Origin: Polaribacter sp. Hel_I_88
GTDB lineage: Bacteria; Bacteroidota; Bacteroidia; Flavobacteriales; Flavobacteriaceae
DNA length: 64,000 nucleotides
Assembly (NCBI RefSeq): GCF_000687935.1
Contig: NZ_JHZZ01000001.1
Location: forward strand, 3,544,001-3,608,000
Reading direction: 5' to 3'
This document shows positions 14,795-49,785 of the stretch, one piece after another. Position numbers and translations under genes: made by a program. The first letter of the stretch is position 1; each line of letters starts with the position of its first letter. The notes below the pieces were generated by a model, which saw nothing but the letters and a program-made list of their open reading frames with translations, ran no database searches and had not been told where the DNA came from.

Positions 14795-15568
14795 ATGACG
14801 TTGACAGATTTTACCCCAATTATCGAAACCATAGAAGAAGCGTATGAAATTCCACATTTAAACGCCACAAGAAGAATTTCTGCACTTTTACCCCACGATT
14901 ATTACAAAACAGACAAAAGATATCCTGTTTTGTACTTACAAGATGGCCAAAATTTATTCAACCCAATGTCTCAGTATGGAGATTGGGCAATCGATAAATC
15001 TTTAGCTAAACTAGCTGAACATGGAGAAGCAGATATTATTATTATTGCCATAAATCATGGAGAAAAAGAACGCATAAATGAATACTTACCTTATTATCAT
15101 CCACGTTTTGGACAAGGAAAAGGCACATTTTACATTCAGTTTATGACAGAAAAATTAATTCCATACATCAACGAAAAATACAGAACACTTACCGATTTTG
15201 AAAACACAGGAATTGGAGGCAGTTCTATGGGTGGATTAATAAGTTTACATGCAGGTTTATCTAATCCAGGAACTTTTGGGAAATTGATGATTTTTTCACC
15301 AAGTTTATGGATTTCAAGAAAAATTTATAAAAGCACTAACAGTTTTGCTCCACTAGAAAAAGCTAAAATTTATTTATATTCTGGAGGAAAAGAAAGTGAA
15401 GAACATTTGCCAAACGCAATTGAACTTGGCAACATTATCAATCAAAAAATGGGGAAAGGTCATCAGATAGATTTCCATTTTTCTATTAATGATGAAGGAA
15501 ATCACTCAGAAGTACATTGGCGCAAAGAATTCCCAAAAGCCATACAATGGCTTTTTTATAACAAATAA
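14795..15568 (+). CDS. Alpha/beta-hydrolase, esterase (EstD/Fes-like)
   Basis: A 257-residue cytoplasmic hydrolase of the putative esterase family. The nucleophile elbow is G141-G-S-S144-M-G-G. YPVLYLQDGQNLFNP at 43-57 is the oxyanion-side segment, and the late histidine probably lies in GNHSEVHWRKEFPKAI. No signal peptide is visible. It is the first gene of a three-gene plus-strand run, 6 bp ahead of an M17 aminopeptidase, then an ATP-grasp enzyme. A second, different esterase belongs to the facing operon. Family members cleave siderophore esters, thioesters or other small esters; the substrate here is unknown, though a role in releasing or trimming an amide-linked product fits the locus. 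Confidence 0.8.
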   Translation: MTLTDFTPIIETIEEAYEIPHLNATRRISALLPHDYYKTDKRYPVLYLQDGQNLFNPMSQYGDWAIDKSLAKLAEHGEADIIIIAINHGEKERINEYLPYYHPRFGQGKGTFYIQFMTEKLIPYINEKYRTLTDFENTGIGGSSMGGLISLHAGLSNPGTFGKLMIFSPSLWISRKIYKSTNSFAPLEKAKIYLYSGGKESEEHLPNAIELGNIINQKMGKGHQIDFHFSINDEGNHSEVHWRKEFPKAIQWLFYNK

Positions 15569-15574
15569 ACTAAG

Positions 15575-16987
15575 ATGAAATTTACACACATAAAAAGTAT
15601 AGATACTACCAAAGATTTTATTTTACCTTGTAAAAAAGACGATTTAAAATCAATTCAAGAGTTTTTACCAATTGCAAATCCAGACTTTGATGGAAGTTTT
15701 AATACGCACCTTTTAATTTATGGAACAAAAGGAAACCGAATTTATCTAGTTGGTTTAGGTGAAGATAAAAATGCTGGTCAAATAGAAAGTACATTTCAGA
15801 AGTTTGCTTTTGAAACATGTAAATATTGGAGCAATGATATTCAGCTTTATGCTGATGGTTTAAATGATGATGAACTTTTAAAAACTGTTATTGGGTTAGA
15901 AATGAGTCAATATACAATTGGCGAATTCAGATCTAAAAAAGAAGATAAAAAGGAGTTTACAGTTGTTATTTCATCAACAAAAAATATTGAAAACATTCTT
16001 GAAGAGGGCAAGTTTACTGGCGAAACTATCAATAAAATTAAAGGTTTGGTTGATGCTCCACCTAATGTAAAAACTCCAGAATATTTAGGAAATTGGGCAG
16101 AAAAATCAGCAAAAGAAGCTTCTTATACGTGTACAGTTTTAAAACAAAAACAATTAGAAGAACAAGGTTTTGATGCTGTTTTATCAGTTGGAAAAGGAAG
16201 CGTAAATCCGCCAGTTGTCATCATCAACGAATATAAAGCAAAAGATACTGAAACTATTGATATTGCTTTGGTTGGGAAAGGAATTACATTTGATTCTGGA
16301 GGATTGTCCATAAAACCATCTACCAATTTACACTACATGAAAAGTGATATGGGTGGAGCTGCAGTAGTTTTAGGTGTTGTAGAATTGGTGGCAAAATTAA
16401 AACTAAACATCAATATAATCGGAATTGTAGCATCCGCAGAAAATGCTGTAGATGCCAATAGTTATAGACCTGGAGATGTTATCAACTCATATTCTGGTAA
16501 AACTATTGAGATTATAGATACAGATGCAGAAGGCAGATTGGTTTTAGCTGATGGACTAAATTTCGCTATTAAAAAATACAACCCAGAATATATTATTGAT
16601 CTTGCAACTTTAACAGGAAGTGTGGTGAGAACTTTTGGGTATGCAGCTGCAGGAATGTTTACTGAGAATCAAGAAATGGCAAATACAATGTCTGCTGTTG
16701 GGTACAAAGTGCATGAACGTGTTTGGCAATTGCCAATGTTTGAGGATTATGAAGCCGATTTAAAATCTGACGTTGCTGATATTAAAAACTTTAACGGAAA
16801 ACCAATTGAAGGAGCTATAAACGCAGCAAAATTTTTAGAATTCTTTACAGAAAAACATCCAAAATGGATGCACTTAGATATTGCAGGAGTTTCTTTTGGA
16901 AGTTCTCAATACGCAAAAATGAAAAGTGCTACAGGATATGGAATTCAATTAATTACAAATTTCATTAAAGAAAAAGCTAATAAATAA
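15575..16987 (+). CDS. pepA: Leucyl aminopeptidase (M17 family)
   Basis: Removes N-terminal residues from peptides, cytoplasmic hexamer with two metal ions. The 470-residue protein has the N-terminal regulatory domain to about residue 150 and the catalytic domain after it. GKGITFDSGGLSIKP (K235, D240) and D315-T-D-A-E-G-R321 supply the metal-binding and catalytic residues; the usual NTDAEGR reads DTDAEGR here, a conservative change at the first position. It starts 6 bp after the esterase and ends 44 bp before the ATP-grasp gene. Some M17 enzymes handle Cys-Gly or gamma-glutamyl products, which would suit the neighbouring GCS2/ATP-grasp genes, but general peptide turnover is equally possible. 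Confidence 0.92.
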   Translation: MKFTHIKSIDTTKDFILPCKKDDLKSIQEFLPIANPDFDGSFNTHLLIYGTKGNRIYLVGLGEDKNAGQIESTFQKFAFETCKYWSNDIQLYADGLNDDELLKTVIGLEMSQYTIGEFRSKKEDKKEFTVVISSTKNIENILEEGKFTGETINKIKGLVDAPPNVKTPEYLGNWAEKSAKEASYTCTVLKQKQLEEQGFDAVLSVGKGSVNPPVVIINEYKAKDTETIDIALVGKGITFDSGGLSIKPSTNLHYMKSDMGGAAVVLGVVELVAKLKLNINIIGIVASAENAVDANSYRPGDVINSYSGKTIEIIDTDAEGRLVLADGLNFAIKKYNPEYIIDLATLTGSVVRTFGYAAAGMFTENQEMANTMSAVGYKVHERVWQLPMFEDYEADLKSDVADIKNFNGKPIEGAINAAKFLEFFTEKHPKWMHLDIAGVSFGSSQYAKMKSATGYGIQLITNFIKEKANK

Positions 16988-17031
16988 TTTCATTTTTTGT
17001 AAATTTAAAATCAACTTAAAAACTTAAACCT

Positions 17032-18231
17032 ATGTCTCAAAAACCTTTAAATTTTCTTTGTATTACAACTTATTTTAAAGGTGAACCTTTTTTGGAAAGC
17101 TGTAAAAAAGAAGGACATAATGTATACTTATTAACCAAGAAAAAACTTGAAAATGAAAAGTGGCCTTGGAATTCTATAGACGATGTTTTTTATATTGATG
17201 ATTGGAAACAAGAAGATATTGTTAAAGGAATTGCTTATAAATTTAGAGAAATAAAATTTGATCGTTTTGTAGCTTTAGATGATTTTGATGTTGAAAAAGT
17301 AGCACTTTTACGTGAGCATTTTAGAATGCCAGGAATGGGTAGAACAACTGCGCATTATTTTAGAGATAAACTTGCAATGCGAATGAAAGCTGAAGAGGAA
17401 GGTGTTAATGTGCCAAAATTTACATCGCTTTTTAGTAATGATGCTATCAATAAGTATGCTGATACAATTCCTGCTCCTTGGCTTTTAAAACCAAGAATGG
17501 AAGCTTCTGCAACTGGAATTAAAAAAATTCATTCTAAAGACGAATTATGGCAAATTGTAAATGATTTAGGTGATGAAAGAGACAACTATTTGATAGAAAA
17601 ATTTGCTCCTGGAGATGTTTTTCATGTAGATGGTTTAAATGTTGATGGAAAAGTAAAATTTGCAAGAGTTAGTAAATATTTAGACACACCTTTTGAAGTA
17701 GCTCATGGAGGAGGTATTTTTAGATCTGCAACTTCAGAAATTAGTTCTAAAATAGAAAAAGGTTTGCAAAAAATGAATAAACAGGTTATGAAAGCTTTCG
17801 GAATGCAATTTGGAGCTTCTCATACAGAATTTATTCAATCGAAAGAAACTGGAGAATTATTCTTTTTAGAAACATCATCAAGAGTTGGTGGCGCAAATTT
17901 GGCTGAAATGGTTGAATATGCTTCTGGCATAAACCTTTGGGGTGAATGGGCTAAAATTGAATCTGCGAATCTTAAAAAAGAGATTTATAAATTACCAAAA
18001 ACTAAAAATCAATATGCAGGGATTGTAGTTTCTTTAAGCAGATTTGAACATCCAGATACTACCAGTTTTAAAGATGAAGAAATTGTGTGGAGAATGGATT
18101 TAAAATGGCATATTGGCTTTATAGTCGTTTCTGATTCTAGCGAAAAAGTATTAGAATTATTAGATAAATATACCCATAGAATTGCAAATGAATTTCACGC
18201 GAGTATTCCTGCTCCTGATAAATCTTTGTAA
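17032..18231 (+). CDS. ATP-grasp carboxylate-amine ligase, specificity unknown
   Basis: A 399-residue ATP-grasp enzyme, expected to activate a carboxylate as acyl phosphate and join it to an amine. A pre-ATP-grasp Rossmann-like domain (1-110) opens with NFLCITTYFKGEPFLE. PWLLKPRMEASATGIKKIHS (about 148-167) is the nucleotide-binding lysine and glycine-rich loop. GDVFHVDGLNVDGKVKFARV follows, and FLETSSRVGGANLAEMVE near residue 283-300 holds the Mg-binding Glu and Asn/Arg region. It resembles the carbamoyl-phosphate-synthase/biotin-carboxylase branch more than RimK. It ends the plus-strand arm of the amidoligase locus and converges on the opposite arm across a large palindrome. The substrate cannot be deduced. 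Confidence 0.82.
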   Translation: MSQKPLNFLCITTYFKGEPFLESCKKEGHNVYLLTKKKLENEKWPWNSIDDVFYIDDWKQEDIVKGIAYKFREIKFDRFVALDDFDVEKVALLREHFRMPGMGRTTAHYFRDKLAMRMKAEEEGVNVPKFTSLFSNDAINKYADTIPAPWLLKPRMEASATGIKKIHSKDELWQIVNDLGDERDNYLIEKFAPGDVFHVDGLNVDGKVKFARVSKYLDTPFEVAHGGGIFRSATSEISSKIEKGLQKMNKQVMKAFGMQFGASHTEFIQSKETGELFFLETSSRVGGANLAEMVEYASGINLWGEWAKIESANLKKEIYKLPKTKNQYAGIVVSLSRFEHPDTTSFKDEEIVWRMDLKWHIGFIVVSDSSEKVLELLDKYTHRIANEFHASIPAPDKSL

Positions 18232-18352: not shown

Positions 18353-19555
18353 TTATTGCTCAAAAAAACCTGTGCTACCTCCTACCCAAGTTTTGTCTTT
18401 ATTGTATTTTACTCCAACCATTTCTCCTTTGCTTAAACGCATTAAATTACTTACAATCTCAGTTTTGTTGGTTTTAGAATTGTGTAACAACATCATTCTA
18501 ATTTCGCATTTAGCATTTTCATCCATTGTTTGAATTACGGGTGCATACGCAACTTTTTCTTGTAATAAATAATTAGATTTATTGGTGATATCATCTATCA
18601 TTTTCCGAGTTACGTGAATTTGAACTCCTGCTCCAGCAAAAGAATACAAAGGTTTTAGAACATAATTCTCTAAATCTTCTGGTATCGTTTCTAGTTTGTC
18701 TAAATAGAAAGATTTTGGAACAAATTCACCTTTTAAAAGTGGCATTGTGTATTTACTAATTCTATAAAACCAGTTTGGATGTCCAATCCATTCTACATCA
18801 ACTTCATCTAAAAAATCGAACTCTCTTTCTAAATCGTCTCTTTGAAATAGTTCATCAAAAATTATTCTATTATATATTTTTAAAACTTTTATCTCTTTGC
18901 CTTCATCATCAGCATAAAAAAGTTCTTTACCTCTTTTAATTAACTTAGAAATACACAAAATTTTAATGCCTAACTTTTTTTCAGTTGCAAAAAAATCGAC
19001 AGCAGTTGCTTGTTTCTCTGGCTCAATTTCTAAAAGAATTACTTGTTTCGGATTCGTTTCGCCAACAATTTCTTGTTTTAAAAGCTCAACATATTTTGTT
19101 GGATTTATTCCATTTACATGTTGTGAAAAATCTTCTGGAATTACATTCCCGAAATGTTTTTTATACATGCTGCCTAATAATTCCTGAAAAAAATACAACG
19201 TTGGGAAACCTTGTAATTCAATTAATTTTGGGGTTAAATCTCCATTTTCGTCTTTACAGATTCCAAAATCGAACTGAATAAATTTAGCATATTCATCTTC
19301 ATTAGGTACAATTGTATTGGCATCAAAAAAAGCACCATTGGTCAACTCCTTAAAATTTGGTTGATTGATAACAGCCATAATATCATCACAAGCTTTTATC
19401 AACTTCTCTTTTAATGCTGCTGGAATAAAAACAGGTGTTTCTGCAATTTTAAATTTTGGAACGTACTTATGTGTATTGATAATATCTTCTAAAAAAAGTT
19501 GATACTTTTCTTCAGAAAAATCCTCATTATATAATTTTCTAATTTGATGTATCAT
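18353..19555 (-). CDS. ATP-grasp-like enzyme, last gene of amidoligase operon
   Basis: A 400-residue protein without a characterised relative that I recognise. The C-terminal half looks like an ATP-grasp: YVLKPLYSFAGAGVQIHVTR has the lysine and glycine loop, LLQEKVAYAPVI the hinge, and EIRMMLLH...SNLMRLSKGEMVGVKYNKD the acidic and Asn/Arg metal site. The N-terminal half carries a conserved-looking DFGICKDENGDLTPKLIELQGFP segment that could bind an acceptor. It may be a rearranged or circularly permuted member. It lies 6 bp after the amidotransferase-like gene, so the two should be translated together. Function inferred only as a ligase in the same pathway. Confidence 0.65.
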   Translation of the reverse strand: MIHQIRKLYNEDFSEEKYQLFLEDIINTHKYVPKFKIAETPVFIPAALKEKLIKACDDIMAVINQPNFKELTNGAFFDANTIVPNEDEYAKFIQFDFGICKDENGDLTPKLIELQGFPTLYFFQELLGSMYKKHFGNVIPEDFSQHVNGINPTKYVELLKQEIVGETNPKQVILLEIEPEKQATAVDFFATEKKLGIKILCISKLIKRGKELFYADDEGKEIKVLKIYNRIIFDELFQRDDLEREFDFLDEVDVEWIGHPNWFYRISKYTMPLLKGEFVPKSFYLDKLETIPEDLENYVLKPLYSFAGAGVQIHVTRKMIDDITNKSNYLLQEKVAYAPVIQTMDENAKCEIRMMLLHNSKTNKTEIVSNLMRLSKGEMVGVKYNKDKTWVGGSTGFFEQ

Positions 19556-21485: not shown

Positions 21486-21528
21486 ATGGGAAAAAATATT
21501 AATGAATAAAGTTAATTAAAATTTAGTC

Positions 21529-21604
21529 TGTCTCCTTGAGCGCAATCGAAAGGTTTGATAATTATTTAGGAACTAACAAGTTCTCGACTGCGCTCGAACA
21601 GACA
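21529..21604. repeat. Imperfect inverted repeat inside the amidoligase operon
   Basis: The left arm TGTCTCCTTGAGCGCAATCG and the right arm, read on the other strand as TGTCTGTTCGAGCGCAGTCG, pair with few mismatches around a 35-bp loop. The core GAGCGCAGTCGAA is the same family as at 9402-9417. It may attenuate transcription between the tailed ATP-grasp gene and the GCS2 gene. Confidence 0.7.
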
Positions 21605-21627
21605 TTTTAAAATTACTTTAAAAAAAT

Positions 21628-22710
21628 CTACTTTTTAGCAGATTTAGATTTTGTTGGAGTTTTTTTCGCTGATGCTTTTTTTACAGGTGCTTTTTTCGCA
21701 ACCGTTTTTTTAGCAGGCGCTTTCTTTACGGGTGCTTTTTTAGCCACTGCTTTTGGAGCAGCAACTTGATCTGTAACAAAACTTCCCCAAGTTAAATTCA
21801 TTTGGCCTTTTTTGTATTGTTTTGCTTTTTCAATAGCCATATTTGCAGCATTTTCTACAATCCAATCAAAATTTTCTTGACCTACAGAATGAATATCAGC
21901 ATCTGGTGCAGGATTACAAAAATCAATAGCATAAGGAATGCCATCTCTTACTGCGAATTCTACTGTATTAAAGTCGTATCCTAAAGCTTTGTTTAAACGA
22001 ATACAATATTCGTGCACAGTATCTAATATTTTTTGATCAACAGGTTCGCCATCTAAAACATAACGTAAATGATGAGGGTTTCTTGGCTCATATTGCATAA
22101 TATGTACATTATCAGTTCCTAAAACATAACATCTAAAATATTCTTTAAAATTGATTTCCTCTTGTAGCATCATTACAAGATTCTCTGTTTCTCCATGTTT
22201 TTGCCATAAATCTTCAGGATTATCAACTCTATATACACTTTTCCATCCACCTCCATCATGTGGTTTCATATAAGCAGGAAAACCAATAGTTTCAAACATT
22301 TTTTCCCAATCAAAAGGATATTTCATGTTTCTAAAAGAGTTTTCAGTAGTATCTGGTGGTCTTTGAGACGTTGGTAAAATAAATGTTTTTGGTACAGGCA
22401 CTCCCACTTTTTCAGCCAAAGCATTGTTGAAAAACTTTTCATCTGCACTCCACCAAAAAGGATTGTTAATAACAGCAGTTCCTGTAATTGCAGCATTTTT
22501 TAAATACGCTCTGTAAAAAGGAACATCTTGCGAAATTCTATCAATAATTACTGCATACTCATCTGATTTTGCTTGTTCTACAGTATCAATTAAAACTGCT
22601 TCAGCCATCATATCTTTGATGCCTTGTTCCTTAATTTTCTGATTAACTCTGTCTATAAATGCTTGTGGAAACGTGTTTTCTTGTCCGAATAAAATTCCAA
22701 TTTTTCTCAT
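21628..22710 (-). CDS. ATP-grasp ligase with histone-H1-like Lys/Ala/Pro tail
   Basis: A 360-residue enzyme. The N-terminal 90 residues (MRKIGILFGQENTFPQAF) form the pre-ATP-grasp domain. PAYMKPHDGGGWKSVYRV near 145-162 is the nucleotide-binding loop, and GYDFNTVEFAVRDGIPYAIDFCNPAPDAD near 244-272 holds the metal-binding Glu, Asp and Asn. This fits the RimK/D-Ala-D-Ala-ligase type. Residues about 317-360 are a low-complexity tail of repeated KKAPVKKAPAKK units, about half lysine, as in histone H1 and bacterial H1-like proteins. Such a tail is unexpected on a ligase; it could bind nucleic acid or polyanions, or serve as an acceptor for modification. It is 39 bp downstream of the esterase. Confidence 0.82.
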   Translation of the reverse strand: MRKIGILFGQENTFPQAFIDRVNQKIKEQGIKDMMAEAVLIDTVEQAKSDEYAVIIDRISQDVPFYRAYLKNAAITGTAVINNPFWWSADEKFFNNALAEKVGVPVPKTFILPTSQRPPDTTENSFRNMKYPFDWEKMFETIGFPAYMKPHDGGGWKSVYRVDNPEDLWQKHGETENLVMMLQEEINFKEYFRCYVLGTDNVHIMQYEPRNPHHLRYVLDGEPVDQKILDTVHEYCIRLNKALGYDFNTVEFAVRDGIPYAIDFCNPAPDADIHSVGQENFDWIVENAANMAIEKAKQYKKGQMNLTWGSFVTDQVAAPKAVAKKAPVKKAPAKKTVAKKAPVKKASAKKTPTKSKSAKK

Positions 22711-48720: not shown

Positions 48721-49785
48721 ATGAAACAAATTTACTTTTTAATCACAATTTTACTTTTAACACCTACGACCTTTTATGCACAAACAGTCACTAATGTTGT
48801 CACTGGCTTAAATGGTCCTATTGCTTTAGCATTCAACAGAAATACATTGTATGTTGCTGAATCTGGTGGAAATAAAATTTCTAAAATTGACATCACTGAT
48901 ACAACACCAACAGCTACTGATGTTGTTACTGGCTTAACTCGTCCTGCTGGATTAACATTCAACGGAAATGACTTATATGTTGCTGAATCTGATGGAAATA
49001 AAATTTATAAAATTGACATCACTACTACAACCCCAACAGCTACTGATGTTGTCACTGGCTTAGTTAGTCCTGTTGGTTTAGCATTCAATGGAAATGACTT
49101 GTATGTTGCTGAATTTGGTGGAAATAAAATTTCTAAAATTGATATCACTGCTACAACACCAACAGCTACTAATGTTGTCACTGGCTTAACTGGCCCTACT
49201 GGATTTGCATTCAACGGAAATGACTTATATGTTGCGGAATATGGTGGAAATAAAATTTCCAAAATTGATATCACTGCTACAACACCAACAGCTACTGATT
49301 TTCTCACTGGATTAAATGGTCCTATTGCATTAGCTTTCAAAGGAAATGACTTGTATGTTGCTGAACTTGATGGAAATAAAATTTCTAAAATTGACATCAA
49401 TGCTACAACACCAACAGCTACTGATGTTGTCACTGGCTTAAATGGTCATTATGAATTAGCATTCAACGGAAATGACTTGTATGTTGCTGAATATTCTGAA
49501 AATAAAATTTCTAAAATTGACAACAACACAATATCATTAAATGACTTTTCTTTAAACAAAGACATAGTAATATATCCAAATCCTTCAGATGAGTTTATTC
49601 AATTTTCTAGTTTGACAGAAAATAATAAATATAGTATTTTTGATATCTTAGGTGCTGAAATCAAAAAAGGAGTGATTTCTAATAATGAGAAAATTAACAT
49701 TAGAAATTTTACAAATGGACTATATTTCTTGAAATTTGATAATGGCAACACGTTTAAATTTATAAAAAAAGAGGGTATTAAATAA
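48721..49785 (+). CDS. Secreted six-repeat beta-propeller protein with T9SS sorting tail
   Basis: A 354-residue exported protein. Residues 1-20 form a signal peptide (ending PTTFYAQ). Six tandem repeats of 42 residues follow (about 22-272), each of the form ATDVVTGL-x-PxxLAFNGN then DLYVAExxGNKISKIDI and TATTPT. This NHL/SMP-30-like repeat count suits a six-bladed propeller. The last 80 residues (NKDIVIYPNPSDEFIQFSS, IFDILGAEIKKG, FTNGLYFLKFDNG) are a type A C-terminal sorting domain, so the protein should cross the outer membrane by the type IX system. Repeats are very similar at DNA level (126-bp period), which points to recent amplification. The ligand is unknown. Confidence 0.85.
   Translation: MKQIYFLITILLLTPTTFYAQTVTNVVTGLNGPIALAFNRNTLYVAESGGNKISKIDITDTTPTATDVVTGLTRPAGLTFNGNDLYVAESDGNKIYKIDITTTTPTATDVVTGLVSPVGLAFNGNDLYVAEFGGNKISKIDITATTPTATNVVTGLTGPTGFAFNGNDLYVAEYGGNKISKIDITATTPTATDFLTGLNGPIALAFKGNDLYVAELDGNKISKIDINATTPTATDVVTGLNGHYELAFNGNDLYVAEYSENKISKIDNNTISLNDFSLNKDIVIYPNPSDEFIQFSSLTENNKYSIFDILGAEIKKGVISNNEKINIRNFTNGLYFLKFDNGNTFKFIKKEGIK

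Follow-up and report, generated by a model that had tools for sequence, protein, structure and literature searches.

A histone-H1-like polycationic tail on an ATP-grasp ligase of a conserved Bacteroidota gene cluster

The ligase, its tail and its neighbours

The window analysed here, a stretch of 64,000 nucleotides from Polaribacter sp. Hel_I_88, carries on its minus strand (21628..22710) an open reading frame with an ATG start for an ATP-grasp ligase of 360 residues, in which a core (residues 1-310) is followed by a polycationic Lys/Ala/Pro tail (residues 311-360 and the stop codon; 21628..21780, minus strand). The tail holds 17 lysines and a single aspartate, giving a net charge of +16, and the protein ends in ...LTWGSFVTDQVAAPKAVAKKAPVKKAPAKKTVAKKAPVKKASAKKTPTKSKSAKK*, with some 45 residues of low complexity. 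An earlier note on this DNA had described a histone-H1-like tail on the enzyme; we confirm it, the position given there being correct to one base (residues 316-360 and the stop codon occupy 21628-21765). Six consecutive KK doublets, starting at residues 324, 329, 334, 339, 344 and 349 and thus spaced as KKxxx, cover residues 324-350 (21661..21741, minus strand). This regularity is visible in the sequence itself and in the tandem repeats that TRF finds in the tail DNA, one of 45 bp x 2.0 (21674-21761, 81% matches) and a second of 15 bp x 2.7 (21661-21700). It extends to the orthologues, lysine positions in 72 tails being autocorrelated at lag 5 (z 19). A period of 5 is by itself no proof of selection, because a tandem origin from 15-bp units would also yield it.

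In the AlphaFold2 model, pLDDT is below 50 at residues 315-337, about 50 in the remaining tail and mostly above 90 in the core; given this low confidence relative to the core, the tail is predicted to be disordered and the core confidently folded. The Pfam model HC2 (PF07382) matches the tail weakly (E 2.6e-4; 21.6 bits, below the gathering cut-off of 40) and the NCBIfam model of the Rv3852 family reaches 28.7 bits against a cut-off of 100. Since both scores fall below their cut-offs, the likeness of the tail to histone-H1-like proteins is one of composition, without family membership.

The core has the ATP-grasp fold. It superimposes on the D-Ala-D-Ala ligase 3lwb with Z 14.2 and rmsd 2.9 over 193 residues, and Z is at least 8 in 709 of the 999 chains compared; the best Foldseek matches are ArgX and LysX, and RimK is among the nearest folds. 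K149, G153, G154, W156, E251, D263 and N266 are invariant in an alignment of 55 orthologues and are candidate nucleotide and metal ligands. The RimK_fam and LysX profiles match below cut-off, and three assignments were rejected on their scores: RimK family alpha-L-glutamate ligase (TIGR00768; 36.4 bits, NCBIfam cut-off 143.4), D-alanine--D-alanine ligase (PRK14572; 19.1 bits, NCBIfam cut-off 489) and D-Ala-D-Ser ligase (19.5 bits, cut-off 520). Thus, the ATP-grasp core is common to RimK, LysX, ArgX, D-Ala-D-Ala ligase and the window ligase, but the latter scores far under the family cut-offs. Within its own genus the core is 94% identical to that of P. aestuariivivens.

The ligase belongs to a conserved cluster whose other members, recognised as conserved neighbours by synteny, also lie on the minus strand of the window. 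An esterase (alpha/beta hydrolase, PF00756; 22750..23454) is encoded directly upstream of the tailed ligase, which is followed by a GCS2/YbdK-type carboxylate-amine ligase (PF04107; 20391..21485), assigned by the NCBIfam equivalog PRK13515 at 540.6 bits (cut-off 371), by a class-I glutamine amidotransferase-like protein (PF00117; 19562..20383) and by a second C-N ligase with the glutathionylspermidine synthetase/YgiC fold (18353..19555). This last conserved protein has no match among Pfam and NCBIfam profiles; its AF2 model (pLDDT 91.8) aligns with E. coli YgiC (7uk8) over 345 residues (VIA Z 26.4, rmsd 3.4), and on this model it would represent an unnamed family of C-N ligases. From the families present one may guess that the product of the cluster is a gamma-glutamyl- or polyamine-type amide. 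An amidoligase study by Iyer and colleagues, from 2009, is said to be the likeliest to describe this ligase cluster.

A third ATP-grasp protein (PF13535; 17032..18231) is encoded on the plus strand, opposite to the cluster, which it adjoins in some genomes as judged by synteny; an M17 aminopeptidase and another esterase do likewise, in the window and in some relatives. The block formed by esterase, M17 aminopeptidase and third ATP-grasp gene (window 14795-18231) is commoner within 6 kb of the ligase in tail-less genomes: the aminopeptidase lies within that distance in 10 of 23 tail-less against 1 of 31 tailed genomes, a difference confounded by ancestry and to which the window is an exception.

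Two further features of the window were recorded. The gap between the ligase and GCS2 genes (21500-21627) contains an imperfect palindrome with TTCGAGCGCAGTCGAGA (21582-21598, minus strand), which by eye resembles a flavobacterial intergenic repeat and is present in the window in one copy only. At 48721-49785 lies the gene for a secreted-looking protein of 354 residues, with about six 126-bp tandem repeats (86% matches) that correspond to 42-residue units containing LYVAE..GNKISKID; its C-terminus resembles a type IX secretion signal.

Distribution and evolution of the tail

We gathered 223 orthologues of the ligase, 215 of them distinct and complete, from a sample chosen partly for nearness to the window and partly for spread over the phylum. 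The ligase is distributed patchily: its gene is present in 6 of 117 genomes at the level of the genus, in 31 of 397 at that of the family and in 128 of 395 at that of the phylum. The earlier note had held that absence of the tail in nearly all orthologues would point to a neutral extension. Absence is indeed frequent, 126 of the 215 proteins reaching less than 25 residues past the core, but it is not near-universal, since 89 extend by at least 25 residues and up to 166. All of these 89 extensions are net basic, 86 of them at +5 or more, with a mean composition of 27% K+R, 20% A, 9% P and just 7% large hydrophobic residues. The expectation that the tail would be kept among orthologues while its sequence drifts is borne out near the window, where all 6 genus-level carriers and all 17 of the nearest Winogradskyella-area carriers are tailed, with lengths from 34 to 152 residues and with lysines under purifying selection (see below). 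Only a stub is found in Flaviramulus and Gelidibacter, and in the loci sampled from Flavobacterium, Chryseobacterium and most Algoriphagus and Belliella.

Mapped onto the core tree, the tail trait requires 16 state changes, against a mean of 68, and never fewer than 57, with shuffled labels. One ligase of a conserved but uncharacterised cluster has therefore acquired or shed a tail about 16 times. Among the proteins of the cluster, the tail is restricted to this ligase: an extension of 25 residues or more occurs in 41 of 79 ligases but in none of the products of seven neighbouring genes from the same loci. Loose C-termini across the whole cluster are ruled out, as those of the partners vary by just 0.7-1.9 residues (s.d.). 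The genes for the esterase, the GCS2 ligase, the amidotransferase and the GspS-like ligase are equally frequent in tail-less and tailed clades, and across the loci the ligase tail showed no association with the loss of any core partner gene. Because the tail is volatile in length and absent in many clades, it must be dispensable for catalysis.

How the tail evolves was examined in close relatives. Its dN/dS is below 0.5 wherever estimable (17 pairs) against about 0.01-0.04 in the core, so that the tail evolves faster than the core yet under constraint. Alignment of lysine-rich repeats favours lysine matches, and the null for lysine retention was therefore obtained by shuffling one tail of each of 16 close pairs and realigning. 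Lysine identity in these pairs is 93%, against 63% (maximum 68%) in the null; for A/P/T/S/V the corresponding values are 67% and 43%. Neutral evolution, when simulated, erodes lysine codons more quickly than those for A/P/T/S/V, and the data show the reverse. At 355 of 920 tail positions with identical residues the codons differ. Since lysine identity exceeds the shuffle null and the order of loss is opposite to that of the neutral simulation, purifying selection retains the lysines of the tail, and the orthologue and selection tests together argue that the Lys/Ala/Pro tail is not a product of chance.

Replication slippage, to which the earlier note had thought the repeats might be due, fares less simply. 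Slippage or unequal exchange very likely drives the changes in tail length; lysine retention against two nulls rules out neutral slippage as the sole cause. In Subsaximicrobium (L003), a long stretch within the ligase tail is duplicated almost exactly, which points to unequal exchange inside this tail in the recent past.

Segments of similar composition in TopA and bL21

A search of the genome of the window with the tail sequence returned only the ligase itself, probably owing to the handling of low-complexity sequence. Two DNA patterns were then scanned over the whole genome, a narrow screen that may have missed other tailed proteins; besides the ligase, they found only the C-terminus of topoisomerase I, TopA (TPKKKAAKKKPAAKKKTPAKKTAKKK), and a linker of the ribosomal protein bL21 that leads to a helix-hairpin-helix (HhH) domain. 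Both proteins act on nucleic acid. No gene for Hc1 (PF07432) was found in this genome. As a control, TopA and bL21 were compared in 30 genomes, a non-random choice of which half have the ligase tail and half do not. The lysine-rich TopA end is present in nearly all of them, regardless of the ligase tail, and the bL21 KAP linker in most, often ending in an HhH or Rho_N-type domain. A genome-wide tail habit is thereby ruled out, the TopA end being nearly universal but the ligase tail confined to half of these genomes; because the two are independent, the tail is a property of the ligase itself and reflects no genome-wide compositional effect.

The bL21 segment itself varies. In Flavobacteriaceae (L095, L114 and L284-L313) the KAP linker is joined to an HhH domain; elsewhere a Rho_N/SAP-type domain takes its place, and in some cases the domain is absent. 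The end of this ribosomal protein is a nucleic-acid module that is swapped between genomes.

In three ligases of the Winogradskyella group (L336, L340, which is gene L006, and L351), the KAP tail runs into an intact HhH domain of about 80 residues. The domains scanned, those of L340 and L336, match HHH_5 (PF14520) at 31.4 and 34.3 bits, above the cut-off of 27; a Pfam scan of the window ligase gave no HHH_5 match. The L340 domain shares 72% identity with its counterpart in bL21 of the same genome, the sole genome compared, and dN/dS of the domain among the three ligases is about 0.07-0.11. This purifying selection after the swap suggests that the domain is in use. The core tree places L336 and L340 as sisters and L351 apart, so that the trio counts as two changes; the AU p is 0.167, and the three may have a single origin. 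Recombination between similar KAP-coding stretches may be an easy route for such a swap.

A polycationic tether and its alternatives

Lysines kept by selection while the length drifts lead us to propose that the tail probably moors the ligase to DNA, RNA or the ribosome. On balance, and with a good deal of reserve, we favour the view that the tail, disordered and polycationic in the manner of Hc2 and histone H1, tethers a soluble ATP-grasp amide-ligase, most likely to nucleic acid or the ribosome. Such a tail would bind polyanions without sequence specificity, the likeliest target being the cell's own nucleic acid, that is, nucleoid DNA or rRNA and the ribosome, and would hold the ligase, and perhaps its partners too, at that surface. 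The catalytic domain would carry out the chemistry and the tail would alter location, residence time or local concentration; with the chemistry seated elsewhere, the tail could be lost or lengthened without wrecking the enzyme. The three Winogradskyella-group orthologues would have extended this tether with an HhH domain like that of bL21. For the nucleic-acid tether suggested in the earlier note, the TopA and bL21 segments and the HhH additions thus provide circumstantial support.

Several observations weigh against this tether. Many clades keep the cluster but have no tail, the ligase core shows no recognisable kinship with enzymes of nucleic acids, and polycations also bind polyphosphate, acidic proteins and anionic peptides; recombination between KAP repeats may have produced the HhH fusion incidentally, although the intact, constrained state of this domain speaks against pure accident. 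RimK, LysX and ArgX, among the nearest folds, act on acidic peptides or carriers. With GCS2 and GspS-like ligases adjoining, the tail might accordingly grip a metabolic polyanion, either polyphosphate or an acidic peptide that is substrate or product of the cluster, making the ligase processive or seating it on a granule, as the AlgP and PhaF tails act at granules (PMC9239181). We think this improbable: the sole folded domain added is the HhH, a nucleic-acid module, and no gene for an acidic carrier protein or polyphosphate was noted near the ligase. A still smaller chance attaches to docking on an acidic partner protein, or a contribution to solubility, with no role in nucleic-acid binding; a charge-based tail of loose sequence fits this equally well, and partners are co-encoded, but the same partner genes are present in tailed and tail-less clades and the addition of a bL21-type HhH would go unexplained.

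The two remaining readings we hold to be very improbable. The first, raised in the earlier note, takes the tail as a substrate of the ligases of the locus; in detail, the C-N ligases of the cluster would attach amino acids or other moieties to the side chains of its lysines. Two or three such ligases are encoded together, one of them with the GspS fold, which links carboxylates and amines, and lysines are the very residues that selection keeps. The idea is weakened because tail-less clades retain the esterase, GCS2, amidotransferase and GspS-like genes equally often, and TopA also keeps a lysine-rich end, for which no such use is expected. A neutral low-complexity extension, grown by slippage of 15-bp units, would account for the 15- and 45-bp repeats, for the strong variation in length between close species and for the many clades in which the tail is missing, and yet has little to say for it in view of the lysine retention, far over the shuffle null and opposite in order to the neutral expectation, of the synonymous codon differences, of the basic charge of every long extension and of the few state changes on the tree.

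Returning to the tether, a wider proposal can be made, which we regard as doubtful: that an amide-ligase pathway widespread in Bacteroidota acts on the nucleoid or the ribosome, or while attached to one of them, the ligase being held there by an H1-like tail that is exchangeable and can be strengthened with the bL21 HhH domain. If true, this would suggest that the pathway carries out a peptide-type modification of proteins or RNAs associated with nucleic acid and not the synthesis of free small molecules. H1-like polycationic tails are already known from nucleoid proteins, topoisomerase I and granule proteins; here such a tail is found on a ligase of a conserved cluster, with lysines under selection and a bL21-type nucleic-acid domain added in three genomes. 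Among the matches listed in full-text literature searches, judged by title and abstract, no ATP-grasp enzyme with an H1-like tail was found, and an earlier mention is possible. Two matters become testable, the reason for such tails on enzymes and the cellular site and target of the ligase cluster, with the natural tail-less orthologues as ready-made controls.

Comparison with known systems places the tail among several precedents. Hc2 of Chlamydia consists of pentamers with two basic residues and three that are mainly A/V/T/P (PMC2848022), a make-up also found in ligase residues 324-350. As in the ligase tail, consecutive pentads, even charge spacing and length variation by repeat number are seen in Chlamydia Hc2 (HctB) and in Bordetella BpH1 (PMC2848022); however, these are free-standing DNA-binding proteins, whereas the ligase array forms the C-terminus of a 360-residue ATP-grasp enzyme, and its HC2 score stays under the cut-off. 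The KPAA tail of Pseudomonas AlgP, which is DNA-binding and required for polyphosphate granule spacing, is present also in PhaF (PMC9239181). Both have an H1-like K/A/P tail as the ligase does, and PhaF provides a precedent on a storage-granule protein (PMC9239181), but they are built of KPAA units and have no catalytic domain, in contrast to the KKxxx pentads of the ligase. In topoisomerase I of Streptomyces, C-terminal lysine repeats stabilise the enzyme on DNA and raise its residence and processivity (PMC7398561); there too the repeats sit on the C-terminus of an enzyme, but the substrate is DNA, whereas the chemistry of the ligase is amide ligation. Finally, the bL21 extension of Flavobacteriaceae, a KAP linker followed by HhH or Rho_N, has a linker in the style of the ligase tail; the window ligase has the KAP part only, and three Winogradskyella-group ligases have the bL21 HhH domain in common with it.
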